Positions 25,683 to 32,525 of a DNA stretch of 64,000 nucleotides are shown here, piece after piece. Positions within the stretch are counted from its first letter, which is position 1. Every line of letters starts with the position of its first letter. Made by a program: the position numbers and the translations under genes. Under the pieces are notes generated by a model that saw nothing but the letters and a program-made list of their open reading frames with translations, had not been told where the DNA came from and made no database searches. The stretch is from Kitasatospora sp. MAP12-44 (lineage in GTDB: Bacteria; Actinomycetota; Actinomycetes; Streptomycetales; Streptomycetaceae). Location: contig NZ_JARZAE010000004.1 of NCBI RefSeq assembly GCF_029892095.1, positions 4,526,001 through 4,590,000 of the forward strand, given 5' to 3'.

Positions 25683-25913
25683 ATGACAGCGCTCACCATT
25701 CGCGACGTCCCGGACGATCAGATCCAGACCCTGAAGGTTCGGGCCGCCCAGGCCGGACAGTCGCTCCAGGCATTCATGCAAGACCTGATCGAAAGGGAAG
25801 CGTCCAAGCCCACCATGGCGGAGATGATGGAGCGGCTGAACCGGGAGACCACCGCCCGCGTCAGCGCCGCCGACATCGTCGCTGCCATCGACGAGGGGCG
25901 AGCCGGGCGTTGA
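25683..25913 (+). CDS. VapB/FitA-like ribbon-helix-helix antitoxin
   Basis: A 76-residue protein opening MTALTIRDVPDDQIQTLKVR, then AAQAGQSLQAFMQDLIERE. This is the ribbon-helix-helix pattern of FitA-type VapB antitoxins: a beta strand, two helices and a C-terminal tail that plugs the toxin active site. The end EGRAGR overlaps the toxin start (TTGA), so translation is coupled. It binds the PIN toxin downstream and probably represses its own promoter. The pair lies between thiC and a duplicated thiC 3' end, suggesting recent acquisition. Confidence 0.85.
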   Translation: MTALTIRDVPDDQIQTLKVRAAQAGQSLQAFMQDLIEREASKPTMAEMMERLNRETTARVSAADIVAAIDEGRAGR

Positions 25914-26317
25914 TCGTTATCGACTGTTCCGCTCTGATCCTGGTCCTCACGGCCCAAGGCCCCGACGGAGAGCTCATCCGGAGCCGTGTGGCCGAGGCGG
26001 GGGACGTCTACGCTCCCACCCTCCTGGACTACGAGATCCAGTCAGCGCTCCTCGGCATGCAGCGTGGCGGCAAGCTGACTGAGAGGGAAGTGGAAAGGGC
26101 GGTCGTCGCATACCGGATGCTTCCCATCGCCAAACGGGAGACGCTGCCGTTCTGGGACAGAGTGAAGAAGCTGCACGCCAACCTCAGTGCCTACGATGCC
26201 CAGTACGTCGCCCTGGCGGAAGCTCTTGGCGTACCGCTGATCACCAGCGACGCGAGGATCAAGCGCAGCGGCGCGGCAAAGTGCGACATCGAGATCTTCG
26301 CCTCGATCCGCCCTTAG
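25910..26317 (+). CDS. VapC-like PIN-domain RNase toxin
   Basis: A 135-residue PIN-domain protein. The acidic metal-binding residues are visible in order: Asp in VIDCSALI near the start, Glu in LLDYEIQSALLG, Asp in LSAYDAQYVALAEAL, and Asp in LITSDARIKRSG. VapC toxins cut tRNA or rRNA when released from the antitoxin. The TTG start at 25910 overlaps the antitoxin stop; no ATG fits better at the N-terminus. All catalytic positions are intact, so the toxin is probably active. Target RNA unknown. Confidence 0.87.
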   Translation: MIVIDCSALILVLTAQGPDGELIRSRVAEAGDVYAPTLLDYEIQSALLGMQRGGKLTEREVERAVVAYRMLPIAKRETLPFWDRVKKLHANLSAYDAQYVALAEALGVPLITSDARIKRSGAAKCDIEIFASIRP

Positions 26318-26655: not shown

Positions 26656-27141
26656 TCACCCCTTTCTGGCCGCACCTTCAGGCCAGATGACCTCCACCGG
26701 AATTCCAGCGGCCTGGGCGCCGGCAACCGTGTCAGCCGTCCCGCCCCGGCCGTTCCCTGGGTGGCCGTCCCACACCGCGATGAGTTGATCCGCGCGCCGG
26801 AGCAGTTCCTGATTGGCGGCCTCGTACGCCTCGCGACTGGCTTCCCCGAATGGCATGACGACTACCTCGATCGCGGCCTGACGAAGGCGGTCGAACTCGT
26901 CCGCGTAGTCGGGTTTCACCTTGGCCTCGCGGTAGTCAGCAGACGGGATGACGACCACCAGGCTCCCGCCGAGCGACAGAACGGCATCAGCGAACAGGGC
27001 ATCGGCGCCCTTGGCGATGCAAGAAACGCCTGTCAGGCCCGAAGTCGTATACGAGGAAAGAGTGGTGAGGAGTGCCTCGCCGACCAGCCGGGCCGTCTGC
27101 TCGGTCAGGTCCATGTGCCCCGTCACAGCGATCACGGTCAT
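26656..27141 (-). CDS. SLOG-like (Rossmann, nucleotide-binding) protein
   Basis: A 161-residue protein: MTVIAVTGHMDLTEQTARLV, then GLTGVSCIAKGADALFADAVL, LGGSLVVVIPSADYRE and ADQLIAVWDGHPGNGRGGTADTV. The TGH motif near the start and the GGTAD segment near the end resemble the SLOG/DprA-like superfamily, whose members bind or cleave nucleotide-derived signals. The function is unknown. It ends the leftward pair led by the XRE/TPR-like regulator (16-bp gap), so the two are likely co-expressed. The pair diverges from the peptide-modification operon. GGGGAG precedes the ATG. Confidence 0.7.
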   Translation of the reverse strand: MTVIAVTGHMDLTEQTARLVGEALLTTLSSYTTSGLTGVSCIAKGADALFADAVLSLGGSLVVVIPSADYREAKVKPDYADEFDRLRQAAIEVVVMPFGEASREAYEAANQELLRRADQLIAVWDGHPGNGRGGTADTVAGAQAAGIPVEVIWPEGAARKG

Positions 27142-27157: not shown

Positions 27158-28612
27158 TCAGTTCGCCAGTAGCTCGCGGATGCTATCGCGCGCGTCGCGT
27201 ACCGCAGCGTTCGCCGAGCGACCAACGGTGTACTGGTAGAGAGCTCCCAGCTGGCTTCTGACACGGCTGGACTGGGTGCGTGACGCGACCTGCACAGCAA
27301 CGCGCGTCTCTTCGACGGCCCCGGTGACATCACCGACCAGGAATCGTGTCTCGGCTAGTCCGATCCGGTCCAGCGCATGGGAACGACCGGCCTCTTCCCC
27401 ACGAATGGAAATGGCGGCCCGGATATGCTGGGCGGCTGTTTCTGCGTGGGCGCGGGGTTCTGTCCGAGCGAGATCGAGCAGACGCCCACCCGTCACTCCG
27501 GCCAGTTCGGCGGTGTCGAAGTAGGAGATCCAGTGGGGCTCGTCAGCATTCGCTCCGACTGACGCGAGCTCCTCCTCAGCCTGGCTGGTCGCCCGCCGAA
27601 ATGCCGCGACTCGGCCCATGGCTGCATAAGCCCATGCCTCTCGTGTGTGCAGCATGGCCAGAACCCGTGGCCCGCCAAGCCCGCGGGCGCCGTCCTGGGC
27701 GAAGCGGATGAGTTCGAGTGCGTCCGCCGGCCGATCGATGTACAGCATCTGCCGGGCCATGCCTGCCAGCACATTGGCGCCGAACGGGCGGTCTTCTCCT
27801 GCATGGGCAGCGCGCAGGGCAAGGCGGTAGTAGTCCTGCGCCCTGCGCTGGTGTCCGGAGTCCCACGCCATTGTCGCTGCCGTGCCGGCGAGTTGTGCCA
27901 TGACGCGATACAGACGGCGCTCGATGTCCGGGTGTTGGCGATCTTCAAGGGCCGAGGCTGTCTCATTGAGCTGGCCCAGGACTGCCTTGGACCGGAGCCC
28001 GCCGCCGAACTGGTGGTCCCAGCGCCGGAAAGCGACGGCAGCAGCTTCGAGCTGGCTGACTTCGTGTTCGCCGAGGCGCCCCGGTCGCCGGCGCTCATCA
28101 GCCTTTGCCGCTGCGGTCAGCCAACCTTCGAGCGGGTCCAGTAGCGCGGTTCCTGAGACGGCGGCGACGGCGAGAAGGAGAGTGGCGGTTCGTCTGTCCA
28201 TAGCGAGATCGGCTCTTGTCAGTTGAGTCGCGAGATCGGTGGTTACCGCCGGGTGCCATGGGACGTCATCTGCAGGGGACCCGCCTGACACGGGTGCTGG
28301 CGGTACAGCTGGCTGCTTCTCCCACGGACGCGCGCTGAGCCCCAGGAGATCCCCGGGAATCGACAGGCCGTCTGCGATTCGCGTGATCACATCGTAGGAA
28401 GTGACGTGCTGATCGCCGGAGATCACCGTCGATACCTTGCCCGGCGTCAGCTGACATGCTGAGGCGATGCGGTTCTGAGACAGCCCGCCGTACTTCTTGA
28501 TCAAGCTGAACGCCGAAGCGAAGTCGTGTTCCGCGAGAGCTGCGCGGAGGTCTTCGCGCGCGAGAAGGTCAGCGGAGAGTAGCGGGCCACGGGTGGGGCC
28601 GGAATGCGTCAT
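27158..28612 (-). CDS. XRE-family regulator with TPR-like sensor domain
   Basis: A 484-residue protein. An N-terminal helix-turn-helix (GGLSQNRIASACQLTPGKVSTVISGD, given as GGLSQNRIASACQL and TPGKVSTVISGD) is at about residues 40-70. A ~330-residue helical region with TPR-like repeats follows (RRAQDYYRLALRAAHAGEDR, PADALELIRFAQDGARG, EAWAYAAMGRVAAFRRATSQ). Such architecture is common in streptomycete regulators that bind small peptides or partner proteins. It probably controls the divergent promoter toward the anti-sigma-type ATPase and peptide operon. Start at 28612 (MTHSGPTRG) has AAAGG upstream; longer starts lack a site. Confidence 0.82.
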   Translation of the reverse strand: MTHSGPTRGPLLSADLLAREDLRAALAEHDFASAFSLIKKYGGLSQNRIASACQLTPGKVSTVISGDQHVTSYDVITRIADGLSIPGDLLGLSARPWEKQPAVPPAPVSGGSPADDVPWHPAVTTDLATQLTRADLAMDRRTATLLLAVAAVSGTALLDPLEGWLTAAAKADERRRPGRLGEHEVSQLEAAAVAFRRWDHQFGGGLRSKAVLGQLNETASALEDRQHPDIERRLYRVMAQLAGTAATMAWDSGHQRRAQDYYRLALRAAHAGEDRPFGANVLAGMARQMLYIDRPADALELIRFAQDGARGLGGPRVLAMLHTREAWAYAAMGRVAAFRRATSQAEEELASVGANADEPHWISYFDTAELAGVTGGRLLDLARTEPRAHAETAAQHIRAAISIRGEEAGRSHALDRIGLAETRFLVGDVTGAVEETRVAVQVASRTQSSRVRSQLGALYQYTVGRSANAAVRDARDSIRELLAN

Positions 28613-28792: not shown

Positions 28793-29287
28793 ATGAGCCC
28801 GTTGAAGACAGCATCGTTCCCGGTGCCGTACGAGTGGGATGTTGAGGCTGACGCGGCCGCTGTCCCGCCGGCCCGGCGCTTGGTCGTCGACATCGCGCGG
28901 TTCTGGCAGGTGCCGTTGTCGGACGATGCCCTGCGCGATGTCGAGTTGTGCACGAGTGAGCTGCTGGCGAACGCCATGGAGCACACGAAGGCGCGGTGCA
29001 AGGTGACGGTGCGTTGGACGGGCATTCGACTGCGGGTGGAGGTCGCGGACAGCAGCCTCCGGCTCCCGGACCCGGATACGGCGCAGGACACCGTGACGGG
29101 TGGTCGGGGCCTGATGGTGGTCGCGGGTCTGTCGCACTCGTGGGGCTGGGAGCCGTCCGGGGCCGGGAAGGTCGTCTGGTTCGAGTGCGCCCCGGACCAA
29201 GTGGTGACCGGCGACGAGCGCCTGTCCGTACTCGTGCGGGCCGCCGACATCGATGCCGCTGCGAAGGTGCGCTCGTCAGCCGCGTAG
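28793..29287 (+). CDS. Anti-sigma-type HATPase (RsbW-like ATP-binding protein)
   Basis: A 164-residue GHKL ATPase. The N box is ELCTSELLANAMEHTKARC (about residues 55-73), the G1-like motif is VEVADSSLRLP and the G2 box is GGRGLMVVAGLSHSWGWEPSG. Such single-domain proteins act as anti-sigma serine kinases or as partners of XRE-family regulators in streptomycetes. It stands first in the rightward direction, 165 nt before the peptide gene, and may share its promoter. It is likely a regulator of the downstream operon, or couples it to stress signals; direct evidence is lacking. Confidence 0.82.
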   Translation: MSPLKTASFPVPYEWDVEADAAAVPPARRLVVDIARFWQVPLSDDALRDVELCTSELLANAMEHTKARCKVTVRWTGIRLRVEVADSSLRLPDPDTAQDTVTGGRGLMVVAGLSHSWGWEPSGAGKVVWFECAPDQVVTGDERLSVLVRAADIDAAAKVRSSAA

Positions 29288-29451: not shown

Positions 29452-29586
29452 ATGGTGCAGGACACCACGTCGGCCCCGGCCGCTGAGGGCGGCCTCCTGG
29501 TCGCCGCACGGAAGATCGCTGCTGCCCGGGCCCGGACCGAGGTCCCGTCCGACGTCACCAGCGGCAAGTCCGACGGCAACGACTGA
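29452..29586 (+). CDS. Small peptide, candidate ribosomal precursor for the downstream modifying enzymes
   Basis: A 44-residue reading frame: MVQDTTSAPAAEGGLLVAAR, then KIAAARARTEVPSDVTSGKS, then DGND. A ribosome site (AAGGGAAGAAG) lies 5 nt before the ATG, and the next gene starts 14 nt after its stop. The Ala/Arg/Lys-rich helix-like middle and Ser/Thr/Asp-rich tail look like a leader-core layout, but the boundary cannot be set. No Cys is present, so it is not a lanthipeptide or sactipeptide. The neighbouring JmjC oxygenase family is known to hydroxylate Arg, His, Asn, Asp and Lys in proteins, and this peptide has four Arg residues and two Lys. I know no matching family. A small regulatory or structural protein is the alternative. 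Confidence 0.6.
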   Translation: MVQDTTSAPAAEGGLLVAARKIAAARARTEVPSDVTSGKSDGND

Positions 29587-29600
29587 TAAGGGCGCCCACG

Positions 29601-30791
29601 ATGCTTGATGCTGCCTCGTGGGCGGCGCGTCTGGGCGGGGAGTCCTTCCTCGTCCAGACGCTCAGCCGCTCCTACGCCGTCTTCCCGGGTGAGGCCGCCG
29701 ATGTGGCCGACCTCCTGTCCTGGGACGACATGAACAACATCCTCGCCACCCAGCGCTTGGAGGCCCCGCGGCTTCGGCTGTCGCTGGATGGCGAGATGGT
29801 GCCCCAGTACCGGTATTCGCTGCCGGTCACGACCCGACGGTCCGTGACCTGGCACCGCATCCAGCCGGCCGACCTGCACACTCAGCTGGCTGAGGGGGCC
29901 TCCCTCGTTCTGGACTCGATCGAGAAGATCCACCCGCCGATCGGGGCCGCCGCTGAGGCCCTGGAACGCTTCCTCGGCACGCTGGTTCAGGTGAACGCTT
30001 ACGCCTCCTGGACCGAGCGGGAGGGCTTTGGGACCCATTGGGACGACCACGACGTGGTGGTGGTCCAGGTGTACGGATCGAAGCGTTGGAAGCTGTACGG
30101 GCCCACCCGGCCCGCGCCGACGTTCCGGGACGTGGAGACCCCGGAGGAGCCGCAGGGCGATCCGGTGGCCGATGTGGTCCTGACGGCTGGTGACGTGCTC
30201 TACGTGCCGCGCGGCTGGTGGCACGGGGTCATGGCGGATCAAGGAACAGAGTCCCTGCACCTGTCGTTCGGCCTGGTGACCCAGACCGGGTCTGACTTGC
30301 TGATCTGGCTGGTCGATCAGCTTCGCTCGCGCTTCGTTCTCCGCCGTGACGTACCCCGGTTCGCCTCACCGCGCGAACAGGCCGCGTTCGTGGAGGAGTT
30401 GCGCGAAAAGATGATGACCGAGCTGTCGGATCCGGATCTGATCAGCCGGTGGGCGGAGTCGGTGGACACCACCCACTACGGCCGCGCGGTCCCCTCGCTG
30501 CCCTATGTCACCGGCCTGCCCGCTCGCGCGGAGGTGTCGGTGCGCCTGACCACTCCTCGGGCGCGGCTCACGGAGAACCGGGCCGAGGGCACGGTGACCC
30601 TCGCAGCGGCGGGAACTGCGTGGGACTTCACCGAACAGGCTGCTCCGATGCTCCGGGTCCTGCTCACTGGGCAGCCGGCCACACTCGGTTCGCTGGCCGC
30701 GACAGCCGGACTTGAGGTCAAGGACGTGGCGTCGCTGCTCACGGTCCTCATCGAGGGCCAGGCGGCTTCCGTCGTCGGGACGGCGCTGTGA
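29601..30791 (+). CDS. JmjC/cupin-type 2-oxoglutarate- and Fe(II)-dependent oxygenase (YcfD/ROX-like)
   Basis: A 396-residue protein. The iron-binding facial triad is visible: H146 and D148 in GTHWDDHD and H208 in GWWHGV. Between them lie VYGSKRWKLYGP, with a Lys probably contacting 2-oxoglutarate, and GDVLYVPRG. The order JmjC core, helical dimerisation segment (about 245-300) and C-terminal winged-helix-like domain (about 325-396) follows the ribosomal oxygenases such as YcfD, which hydroxylates an Arg of ribosomal protein L16. Here the gene directly follows a small peptide gene and overlaps an aldo/keto reductase gene by 4 bp (GTGA), so the peptide is the likely substrate. A ribosomal-protein target remains possible. 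Confidence 0.85.
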   Translation: MLDAASWAARLGGESFLVQTLSRSYAVFPGEAADVADLLSWDDMNNILATQRLEAPRLRLSLDGEMVPQYRYSLPVTTRRSVTWHRIQPADLHTQLAEGASLVLDSIEKIHPPIGAAAEALERFLGTLVQVNAYASWTEREGFGTHWDDHDVVVVQVYGSKRWKLYGPTRPAPTFRDVETPEEPQGDPVADVVLTAGDVLYVPRGWWHGVMADQGTESLHLSFGLVTQTGSDLLIWLVDQLRSRFVLRRDVPRFASPREQAAFVEELREKMMTELSDPDLISRWAESVDTTHYGRAVPSLPYVTGLPARAEVSVRLTTPRARLTENRAEGTVTLAAAGTAWDFTEQAAPMLRVLLTGQPATLGSLAATAGLEVKDVASLLTVLIEGQAASVVGTAL

Positions 30792-31693
30792 CGGCCGTCC
30801 TCGCATTGGGAACGTACCGGGTGCGCGTCGTCAGCCAGGCGGCGCGCACCGCCCTCGCCGCCGGTGCGCTGTGGGTGGACACGGCCCCGAACTACGCGCA
30901 TGGGTTGGCCCACCAGGAGCTGGCTCCTGTGCTTGAGGAGTACCCGCAGGCGCGGGTGGCGACCAAGACCGGCTTTCACACCCCTGCTCAGGGGCGGGCG
31001 GCTGTCGTTGCGGGTGTGCTGACCGACGAGAGCGCGGCCGTCGGCCACAGCTTGGCGTCTGCCTTCGTGCGCTGGCAGACAGAGAACTCCCTGCACGTCC
31101 TTGGCCGAGCCGACCTGGTGTTCGTCCACAACCCCGAACGCGTCTGGCACGATCACGGCCGGGATGAGTGCCACGCCCAACTGCGCTCGGCCTTCGCAGA
31201 ATTGGAGAGCCTCGCGCACAACGGCCGAATCCGGGGCTATGGCATCGCCACCTGGTCCGGATTCACCTCCGGTGCGTTCACCGTCGCGGAGCTGCTGCGC
31301 CTGGCGGAGGAAGCCGCCGGCTCCTCCCATCACCACTTCAGCGGCCTGCAACTCCCTGTGAGCCTGGTGATGGCCGACCCCATAAGCCAAGCCCTCGACA
31401 GTGGCGGTCCGCTCTTCCACGCGCGCGCTGCCGGGGTGACAACCTTCGGCTCGGCGCCGCTGCACGGCGGTGAACTTCCCGACCTGATGACACCCGAACT
31501 GGTGGAGTTCATCCGGCCCGGCCTTTCAACCCCGGCCGCCGCTCTGCTGGTAGCGGCCTCATGCCCAGCCCTGGACGTGGTTCTGGTCTCGGCGAGCAGC
31601 CCGGAACACTGGCACGATGCTGCCCGTGTGCTGGCCGACCCGCTGGCCGCCGACCGACTCAGGAAGGTGATCGATGCACTCGCCACCGGATGA
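30788..31693 (+). CDS. Aldo/keto reductase-like protein
   Basis: A 301-residue protein with the AKR barrel pattern and its catalytic tetrad: D31 and Y36 in VDTAPNYAHG, K60 in VATKTG, and H114 in DLVFVHNPE. Later conserved pieces are IRGYGIATWSGF and the C-terminal VLVSASSPEHW, which matches the NADP-binding end. AKRs reduce carbonyls with NADPH. In this operon it could reduce an aldehyde or ketone formed after oxygenase action on the peptide. The GTG start overlaps the JmjC stop, and its end overlaps the next gene by 20 bp, so the products are probably made together. Confidence 0.82.
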   Translation: MTAVLALGTYRVRVVSQAARTALAAGALWVDTAPNYAHGLAHQELAPVLEEYPQARVATKTGFHTPAQGRAAVVAGVLTDESAAVGHSLASAFVRWQTENSLHVLGRADLVFVHNPERVWHDHGRDECHAQLRSAFAELESLAHNGRIRGYGIATWSGFTSGAFTVAELLRLAEEAAGSSHHHFSGLQLPVSLVMADPISQALDSGGPLFHARAAGVTTFGSAPLHGGELPDLMTPELVEFIRPGLSTPAAALLVAASCPALDVVLVSASSPEHWHDAARVLADPLAADRLRKVIDALATG

Positions 31694-32525
31694 ACAGACC
31701 AGGGTCCGGATGGAGGCGGCGCACCAGGAAGCGGCCCGCCAGTTCGGGGTGCACTGCGATGGCGCCCCGGTCTGGGGAGACCGCGGAAGCACTCTCAGCC
31801 GACGCGCCGCGAACCAGTGGCTGCGTGTCTTCTCGACCAGGAAGGCGAACCCCGTCCGCAACAATGGCGAGGGCATCGTGGGCGCGTCGGAGCTGATCCC
31901 CGACGACGTGCCGCGCCCCCGGCTGCACGGCTCCTTGGACTGGATCGAGGACGATTTCGGCTACGGCGCCGACCTCATCGACTTCGTGCCCCACCCGGTC
32001 ATCTCGCCGCACCGCCCCGACTTGGACCACGACCCCGAGCTGTCCGACGAATGGTGGAGCACCCTGCGCCGTGCTCTCACCAGCCTGGGACAGGTCCAGG
32101 GTGTGCGAACGACGGTGCGGGACACCTGGATCGAGAGGGCGTTCCCCCAGTTCCTCGGCATCCCGGCCCCTGAGAGGATCGAGCGCACCACCGGCCACGG
32201 TGACCTGGCTTGGGGGAATCTGACCGCGCCGCTGATCATCCTCGACTGGGAACGCTGGGGGCTCGTCCCCGTCGGACACGACGTCGGCACACTGCACGCG
32301 ACCAGCCTCCTCGTTCCCGAGGTGGCCGCCCGCATCCGCACCGAGTTCGCCGATGTGCTCGACAGCCCCGCCGGCCGGATCGGCGAACTCATCGCGCTGG
32401 CCGAGATGCTGCAAGCCGTCGCACGCGGCTACTACCCCGAACTGGCGCACCTCCTGGTTGCGCGAGCTGCTGAACTCACCGGAGTCCAACCCCCCATCCC
32501 GGTCAGCTCGGAGATCCCTGTCTGA
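31674..32525 (+). CDS. Phosphotransferase-like (APH/kinase fold) protein
   Basis: A 283-residue protein. The catalytic-loop motif is TTGHGDLAWGNL (Brenner-type HGD-x4-N) and the metal-binding motif is LIILDWERWGLVP. These are typical of aminoglycoside phosphotransferase/fructosamine kinase-type enzymes. The N-terminal lobe is short and a glycine loop is not clear, so activity is uncertain. It closes the peptide operon, overlapping the reductase gene by 20 bp; AAGGTG 4 nt before ATG 31674 supports the start. It may phosphorylate the peptide product, confer self-resistance or phosphorylate a sugar or amino substrate. Confidence 0.65.
   Translation: MHSPPDEQTRVRMEAAHQEAARQFGVHCDGAPVWGDRGSTLSRRAANQWLRVFSTRKANPVRNNGEGIVGASELIPDDVPRPRLHGSLDWIEDDFGYGADLIDFVPHPVISPHRPDLDHDPELSDEWWSTLRRALTSLGQVQGVRTTVRDTWIERAFPQFLGIPAPERIERTTGHGDLAWGNLTAPLIILDWERWGLVPVGHDVGTLHATSLLVPEVAARIRTEFADVLDSPAGRIGELIALAEMLQAVARGYYPELAHLLVARAAELTGVQPPIPVSSEIPV

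Follow-up and report, generated by a model that had tools for sequence, protein, structure and literature searches.

Is a 44-residue peptide encoded directly upstream of a JmjC oxygenase gene the precursor of a ribosomally synthesized and post-translationally modified peptide (RiPP), and if so, which of its residues would be modified? This question is raised by a four-gene operon in the 9.04-Mb genome of Kitasatospora sp. MAP12-44. The operon lies within the 64,000-nt stretch that was analysed here (contig NZ_JARZAE010000004.1, positions 4,526,001 to 4,590,000, forward strand; hereafter the window), and comprises genes for the peptide, a ROX-type JmjC 2-oxoglutarate (2OG)/Fe(II) oxygenase, an aldo/keto reductase (AKR) and an APH-fold phosphotransferase. 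Judging from comparisons of the sequences, the locus probably represents a compact and undescribed RiPP-like pathway. A preliminary description of the window had read it in the same way; the ribosomal peptide with an enzyme set of its own, a leader and a core was borne out by our analysis, but the Arg/Lys chemistry that it proposed was not.

The peptide gene and its operon

The features of the operon are given below in window coordinates. Class A denotes peptides of the window's type, and class B a second group with a similar leader and different cores.

29452..29586, + strand: putative 44-residue precursor peptide, MVQDTTSAPAAEGGLLVAARKIAAARARTEVPSDVTSGKSDGND (open reading frame (ORF) with a ribosome-binding site (RBS)-like stretch; homologues adjoin JmjC genes in 172/174 loci by hidden Markov model (HMM); dN/dS 0.29)
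29491..29535, + strand: leader-like segment G14-R28, GLLVAARKIAAARAR (peptide alignments; similar motif in class B peptides)
29548..29583, + strand: presumed core S33-D44, SDVTSGKSDGND (invariant residues in 29 aligned class A peptides; dN/dS 0.15 in the last 14 codons)
29601..30791, + strand: ROX-type JmjC 2OG/Fe(II) oxygenase, 396 residues (PF08007, 1.9e-30; structure model and Foldseek; H146, D148 and H208 invariant)
30537..30779, + strand: C-terminal winged-helix domain of the JmjC protein (DSSP of the model: strands, then three helices; ROX-type, similar to a RiPP recognition element (RRE) in topology only)
30788..31693, + strand: AKR, 301 residues (PF00248; D31/Y36/K60/H114 intact)
31674..32525, + strand: APH-fold phosphotransferase, 283 residues (HGDLAWGN loop and D191; model matched by Foldseek)

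The reading frames, gap and overlaps listed in the preliminary description were all recovered, with the four genes in one direction: 14 bp separate the peptide and JmjC genes, the JmjC and AKR genes overlap by 4 bp, and the AKR and APH-like genes by 20 bp.

The 44-residue ORF is a genuine gene. Its dN/dS was ~0.29 overall and 0.15 over the last 14 codons, as calculated by pairwise comparison of 131 distinct coding sequences; the 775 pairs used were of equal length and 78-97% DNA identity only, and are not independent of each other. The ribosome site previously noticed before the peptide is present as an RBS-like stretch, and such a stretch was found upstream of 169/170 peptide starts, which had been picked partly on that feature. 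In an alignment of 29 class A peptides, residues S33, D34, G38, D41, N43 and D44 were invariant, and so were L15 and R26; G38 is replaced by Ala in locus L132, which is outside this alignment. The motif SD...[GA]..D.ND was detected in 124 of the 125 distinct peptides found by HMM with no motif filter, the exception being the class B peptide of L139. Residues were counted in 123 distinct peptides, a set chosen by the motif itself. None of these contains Cys or Trp, Lys is missing in 26, and the basic position of the core is occupied by Arg in 85, Lys in 27 and Val in 11. If only class A is considered, conservation is higher in the core than in the leader. In one locus (L106) the core is present, but the stop codon is not in place.

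The peptide gene travels with the three enzyme genes

A single-sequence search located the peptide at 31 places in 23 of the 70 genomes of the genus, and the order peptide-JmjC-AKR-APH was observed in all 31 same-genus loci, the window counted. At E <= 0.001 the peptide profile matched 72/394 genomes of the family, in 8/17 genera, although G293 and G377, at least, are chance matches without a JmjC gene. From the family search 53 further loci were collected, and the four-gene order is present in 45 of them, in nine cases with a split or partial gene; one stops at a contig edge (L130), and another is of class B (L139). The peptide matches in L138, L140 and L287 are due to chance, with no JmjC gene. 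When named genomes were scanned with the JmjC protein only, and the best 80 of 403 relatives were kept, matches to the peptide, AKR and APH-like proteins accompanied the JmjC gene in 80/80 loci (79 by script, and L275 by eye). At the level of the class, 14/394 genomes matched the peptide profile, seven of them from one other family and one by chance; the order was kept in 7/8 loci fetched in this way by the peptide, the eighth being without a JmjC gene. In the second family, all seven loci retain the gene order and have the core PSDGG[SG]TG[RK][SG]D[TL]ND, followed by extra C-terminal tails that differ, and their JmjC proteins score 377-481 bits, as opposed to 536-736 in the 80 named loci.

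With HMMs alone, both the peptide and the JmjC protein were detected in 172/174 loci (31 + 53 + 3 + 87; L032-062, L088-140, L184-186 and L200-286), and the remaining two are chance matches. Hence, a short precursor-like gene stands beside dedicated enzyme genes and is conserved together with them, which is one of the features by which RiPP loci are recognised. The set is redundant (170 loci hold 131 distinct peptide DNA sequences), and since 36/80 named loci repeat the peptide DNA of an earlier-fetched locus, the locus sets are not independent. The gene order that the preliminary description suggested looking for in other actinobacterial genomes thus recurs, with the peptide next to the JmjC gene, and the operon is spread over Kitasatospora, Streptomyces, linear plasmids and the seven genomes of the second family, in up to three copies per genome. 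Among plasmids, 48 records contain a JmjC match; the three inspected, including pSV2 and pSMg1-1, carry the operon, which is annotated there as hypothetical, cupin, aldo/keto reductase and hypothetical.

A similar leader precedes different cores in class B operons

Class B (L309-L358) was found by searching with a divergent JmjC protein (L172). In 30/30 of the top class B loci the JmjC gene is preceded by a peptide with a GLLVAVEELTAVHDRYDS-like leader (29 by script, and L336 by eye), and the peptides of L355 and L357, missed by the script, were also recognised by eye. The class B leader motif is GLLVAVEELxAVxDR and the class A segment is GLLVAxxxIxAARxR, i.e., the leaders of both classes are of the LLVAxxxL/I type and contain a conserved Arg, whereas the cores differ. 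At the position of R26 most class B rows have Gln or His, but Arg is kept at the position of R28. Class B cores include RSDNAGSSGDAPWPGGDGNL..., ESDPTGTSAGDDGDNRDGLNLPQE and RSDPPPDGGGDNPWPDGDSLNHPA, and vary in both length and sequence. The alignment of the peptides, which the preliminary description had proposed as a check, therefore gave a conserved leader followed by a core that hardly varies within class A, whereas class B has other cores. Because a conserved leader with exchanged cores is a hallmark of RiPPs, and because leader and core are separable when the two classes are compared, we read the peptides as an undescribed RiPP-like family. Furthermore, both the AKR and the APH-like genes were found within 7 kb in 21/22 class B regions (mostly the same loci, with more flank); the AKR gene is co-directional, and the APH-like gene lies on the opposite strand in 20/21, being 5.9 kb off in L354.

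A third kind of peptide was observed next to other actinobacterial JmjC genes. In 10/25 of these loci (L146, L147, L148, L149, L151, L154, L156, L158, L163 and L170) an Asp-Gly repeat peptide (EGPADGGSNPEGHDGGADG-like) is encoded no more than 600 nt upstream, and its repeats contain no Lys and no Arg. These repeat peptides look like a separate family of multi-core precursors.

The three enzymes

The JmjC protein matches Pfam JmjC_2 (1.9e-30), and H146-x-D148...H208 is invariant in an alignment of 16 rows. Its model has a mean pLDDT of 73.4, higher in the C-terminal domain, and Foldseek matched it to NO66, MINA53, YcfD and YxbC. Given these matches and the C-terminal winged helix, the fold family is ROX, so that the YcfD-like layout seen previously is supported by the model. 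With an E-value limit of 10, PF20514 (ROXA-like_wH) matched 9/16 JmjC members, the best at 4.8e-5, and the modelled winged helix (strands, then helices) resembles an RRE in topology only. The window protein thus has the same fold, HxD...H site and winged helix as YcfD, NO66 and MINA53, but unlike these housekeeping enzymes it belongs to a separate clade that is tied to a peptide gene. In a quick tree, for which the program warns of long branches, 104 non-redundant JmjC proteins of the operon were split from ten other actinobacterial JmjC proteins by a starred branch. The type of core tracks this tree, with 6 changes over 104 rows vs 32-48 in 200 shuffles. When the phylum was searched, six JmjC genes scored above 200 bits, and each of them belongs to the family: three of class A (548-712 bits), L171 (468), L173 (272) and one of class B (211). 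The JmjC proteins of other families reached at most 162 bits. Orthology to a housekeeping ribosomal-protein hydroxylase, which the preliminary description had named as a finding that would speak against it, was not seen in the tree or in the scores, and such a role was ruled out by the separate clade and the bit-score gap.

The AKR matches Pfam Aldo_ket_red (8.8e-13), and its tetrad D31/Y36/K60/H114 is invariant in an alignment of 15 rows. Against PDB sequences it gave six weak matches, which include aflatoxin aldehyde reductases; the best (2.3e-5) is a putative oxidoreductase. When the four operon proteins were scanned, the peptide and the fourth protein had no match in Pfam or NCBIfam, and the latter had no PDB match by sequence. 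The AlphaFold model of the fourth protein (mean pLDDT 84.6), on which its assignment as a putative APH-fold phosphotransferase rests, was matched by Foldseek to APH(3')-VIII (E 1.2e-5), and also to APH(4)-Ia and capreomycin phosphotransferase. In this protein H175-x-D177-x4-N182 and D191 are invariant in an alignment of 16 rows. Hence, the active-site residues that had been reported as intact in the JmjC protein, the AKR and the HGD-x4-N loop are present and invariant in all three alignments; these positions are the catalytic ones in the respective enzyme families. Three loci (L038, L039 and L055) carry two APH-like genes in tandem.

Which residue is modified, and a possible order of events

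The preliminary description had favoured an Arg or Lys of the RKIAAARAR part as the residue to be hydroxylated. The distribution of the residues does not agree with this: Lys is ruled out as the target, since 26/123 distinct peptides have none, and the basic residue of the core is Val in 11/123. Arg is possible but appears disfavoured, because R26, invariant in class A, is mostly replaced by Gln or His in the class B rows. The residues common to the three groups of cores, as compared by eye, are Asp and Gly. Since the repeat peptides hold no Lys or Arg and Asp and Gly are common to the core groups, hydroxylation of Asp (or Asn) is favoured, and the JmjC target would be a core Asp or Asn. Asp beta-hydroxylation of RiPPs by other enzymes is on record.

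In the proposed pathway, the tailoring enzymes would recognise the N-terminal leader segment GLLVAxxxIxAARxR, and the C-terminal core PSDxxxGxSDxND would be the part modified. The JmjC enzyme would hydroxylate Asp or Asn in the core, with Cbeta as the most likely site by comparison with other JmjC/2OG hydroxylases. In most loci the AKR may then adjust a carbonyl arising in maturation, and the APH-fold enzyme may phosphorylate a side-chain hydroxyl of the core, or else the finished product as self-protection; for both enzymes a step in maturation is inferred from the fold alone. Release and export would depend on general cell functions, which is proposed because no protease or transporter was seen travelling with the operon.

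A broader proposal can be put forward tentatively, namely that ROX-type JmjC enzymes acting on Asp-Gly-rich cores define a new RiPP superfamily, with class A (SD...G..D.ND), class B (SD...GD...DG.LN) and the multi-repeat DGG precursors as members. Asp or Asn would be beta-hydroxylated, and in classes A and B the AKR and the kinase would yield a phosphorylated or dehydrated residue. Such chemistry by a JmjC enzyme, an AKR and a kinase was not found in the open-access literature searched.

Observations that weigh against a RiPP pathway, and alternative explanations

Several observations do not fit a leader-guided pathway easily. The near-invariant class A core might be a fixed functional segment of a small protein that is not modified, and in class A the leader residue R26 equals the Asp residues of the core in conservation. 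The winged helix of the JmjC protein is a domain common to ROX enzymes in general, and when it was compared with ten PqqD-type RREs the hhalign probability was 1.7%, which is not significant; not every RiPP class has an RRE. Of the larger gene clusters that recur in the neighbourhood of 117 loci, none was recognised as a protease or transporter; not every RiPP cluster carries a dedicated protease or exporter. The gene set itself is not without exceptions: the AKR gene is missing from L134, L135 and L137, where the APH-like gene is retained; L132 has a shortened JmjC gene and nothing recognised downstream; the class-B-like L358 has no leader motif, AKR or APH; and 15/25 of the other JmjC loci lack an Asp-Gly repeat peptide within 600 nt upstream. 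Absence of the peptide frame from homologous operons had been named beforehand as a reason to abandon the proposal. For the most part the frame was there, but two cases go the other way: the JmjC gene of L173 (272 bits) has no peptide within 600 nt, and L171 (4870-7669) is a decayed class A copy in which the peptide next to the JmjC gene is reduced to its last residues and the APH lies within a 519-aa ORF.

These observations can be set against four other explanations. In the first, the JmjC enzyme and the AKR make a modified peptide and the APH-fold enzyme confers immunity: like capreomycin phosphotransferase, it would phosphorylate the mature product. The opposite orientation of the APH-like gene in 20/21 class B regions having it would suit such a function, and so would the presence of capreomycin phosphotransferase among the Foldseek matches. 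We nevertheless regard it as rather unlikely, because in the window the APH-like gene overlaps the AKR gene, it is kept in the three AKR-less loci, and no bioactivity is known.

In the second explanation, which we consider unlikely, the peptide is a scaffold of the kind used for pyrroloquinoline quinone (PQQ) and mycofactocin, i.e., the enzymes remodel its C-terminal residues and a general protease frees a fixed small product. This would account for a core that is near-invariant across two families though JmjC scores drop to 377 vs a maximum of 736 bits, and it agrees with the lack of a recognised export gene and with matches in 72/394 family genomes. In class B, however, a similar leader is followed by cores of other lengths and sequences, and no dedicated protease was recognised.

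The third explanation is that the peptide stays unmodified and is an adaptor or subunit that binds the JmjC protein (or the XRE and HATPase regulators described below), the enzymes acting on a metabolite. A conserved leader-like segment, a near-invariant tail and regulators nearby are what an adaptor could show, and a core type that tracks the JmjC tree fits a binding partner too. This appears improbable, since the structural neighbours of the JmjC protein include protein-residue hydroxylases, class B cores differ, and 10/25 of the other JmjC genes are preceded by repeat peptides resembling multi-core precursors. Finally, a housekeeping ribosomal-protein hydroxylase operon beside an unrelated small ORF is hardly credible. 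The complete ROX architecture, winged helix included, would fit it, but the JmjC protein forms its own clade, is distributed patchily, occurs in as many as three copies per genome and also on plasmids, and its gene nearly always adjoins the peptide gene.

Comparison with known systems

If the peptide is modified, as the RiPP-like pathway would have it, how does the operon compare with described ones? The preliminary description knew of no RiPP class with this enzyme set. The set as a whole is indeed undescribed in the open-access literature searched, where no description of the gene set or of the motif was found, but its JmjC element has a precedent: a JmjC enzyme in a RiPP pathway is not new, because in biphenomycin biosynthesis a JmjC 2OG/Fe(II) hydroxylase (BipG/BpmG), acting on ornithine, tailors a RiPP precursor (PMC12707348, PMC12257519). 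Biphenomycin clusters also encode an MNIO, a B12-radical SAM enzyme, an arginase and a TldD-type protease; none of these is among the annotated neighbours here, and the core here consists of Ser, Asp, Gly and Asn. JmjC proteins of PF08007 with an RRE-like fold have been described in fish and algae, and bacterial homologues in RiPP-like settings are reported there in a general way (PMC12710340). In contrast to the operon, neither an AKR nor an APH-fold kinase is mentioned in the JmjC section of that paper, nor is a precursor family or leader motif of the present type, and the words 'aldo' and 'phosphotransferase' are absent from its main text. A term search of papers on BldB and XRE-DUF397 gave nothing on the operon.

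Class V lanthipeptide and thioamitide cores contain Cys, and the operon was ruled out as a member of either class by the lack of Cys in 123/123 distinct peptides. In those pathways an APH-type phosphotransferase is encoded beside the RiPP precursor with a HopA1-like partner, according to the decRiPPter paper (PMC7794033), and no HopA1-type match was obtained among the 14 neighbour representatives scanned here.

The cassette is widespread and plasmid-mobile in a heavily mined bacterial group, the relatives of Streptomyces. Modification of the peptide would mean a new enzyme combination for RiPP chemistry and substrates for orphan actinobacterial JmjC enzymes, and genome mining from a simple leader motif would become possible.

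Neighbouring genes

Three further genes flank the operon in the window:

28793..29287, + strand: HATPase (anti-sigma-like), probable regulator (PF13581, 5.4e-15)
27158..28612, - strand: XRE-type regulator, divergent (PF13560, 27.8 bits at a cut-off of 27; start assigned to the ATG at 28612)
26656..27141, - strand: 161-residue protein adjoining the regulators, no Pfam match (75% identical copy at the class B locus L139)

The neighbourhood survey covered 117/170 loci, one per distinct peptide DNA with enough flank, from -5 to +6.5 kb. XRE-like clusters were found near 93/117 loci (one of the three clusters matches a helix-turn-helix (HTH) domain only weakly) and a HATPase cluster near 32/117; in fewer loci the neighbours were DUF397, DUF6879, methyltransferase, resolvase, relaxase, short-chain dehydrogenase and RibD_C proteins. 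Of the 14 cluster representatives scanned, three had no Pfam match, and an ABC-ATPase-like cluster was seen by eye in 5/117 loci. The XRE and HATPase genes probably control expression of the operon. At L139, copies of the window's XRE (72% identical), HATPase (77%) and 161-residue (75%) proteins are encoded, and therefore a similar regulatory set stands beside both classes; when the loci compared were searched by tblastn (1e-10), L139 alone, apart from the window, had a match to the 161-residue protein.

Two other origins were considered and rejected. An anti-phage defence system was ruled out, since none of the four operon proteins was matched by PADLOC models, and the XRE regulator gave only weak HTH and control-protein matches. 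As for a phage origin, PHROGs was scanned with three of the operon proteins (all but the AKR) and gave only matches of unknown function for the JmjC protein, and none for the peptide and the kinase.

Minor observations were made at two of the other JmjC loci and in the window. At L175 the next gene encodes a Suc_Fer-like protein. In L182 (6225-12926) two JmjC-like genes (116 and 26 bits) lie beside a gene for a TfuA-related protein that scores below the curated cut-off, and this gene set is possibly a different RiPP pathway. At 25683-26317 of the window, a FitA-like ribbon-helix-helix protein and a PIN domain protein are encoded as a pair, which is probably a toxin-antitoxin module of the VapBC/FitAB type.

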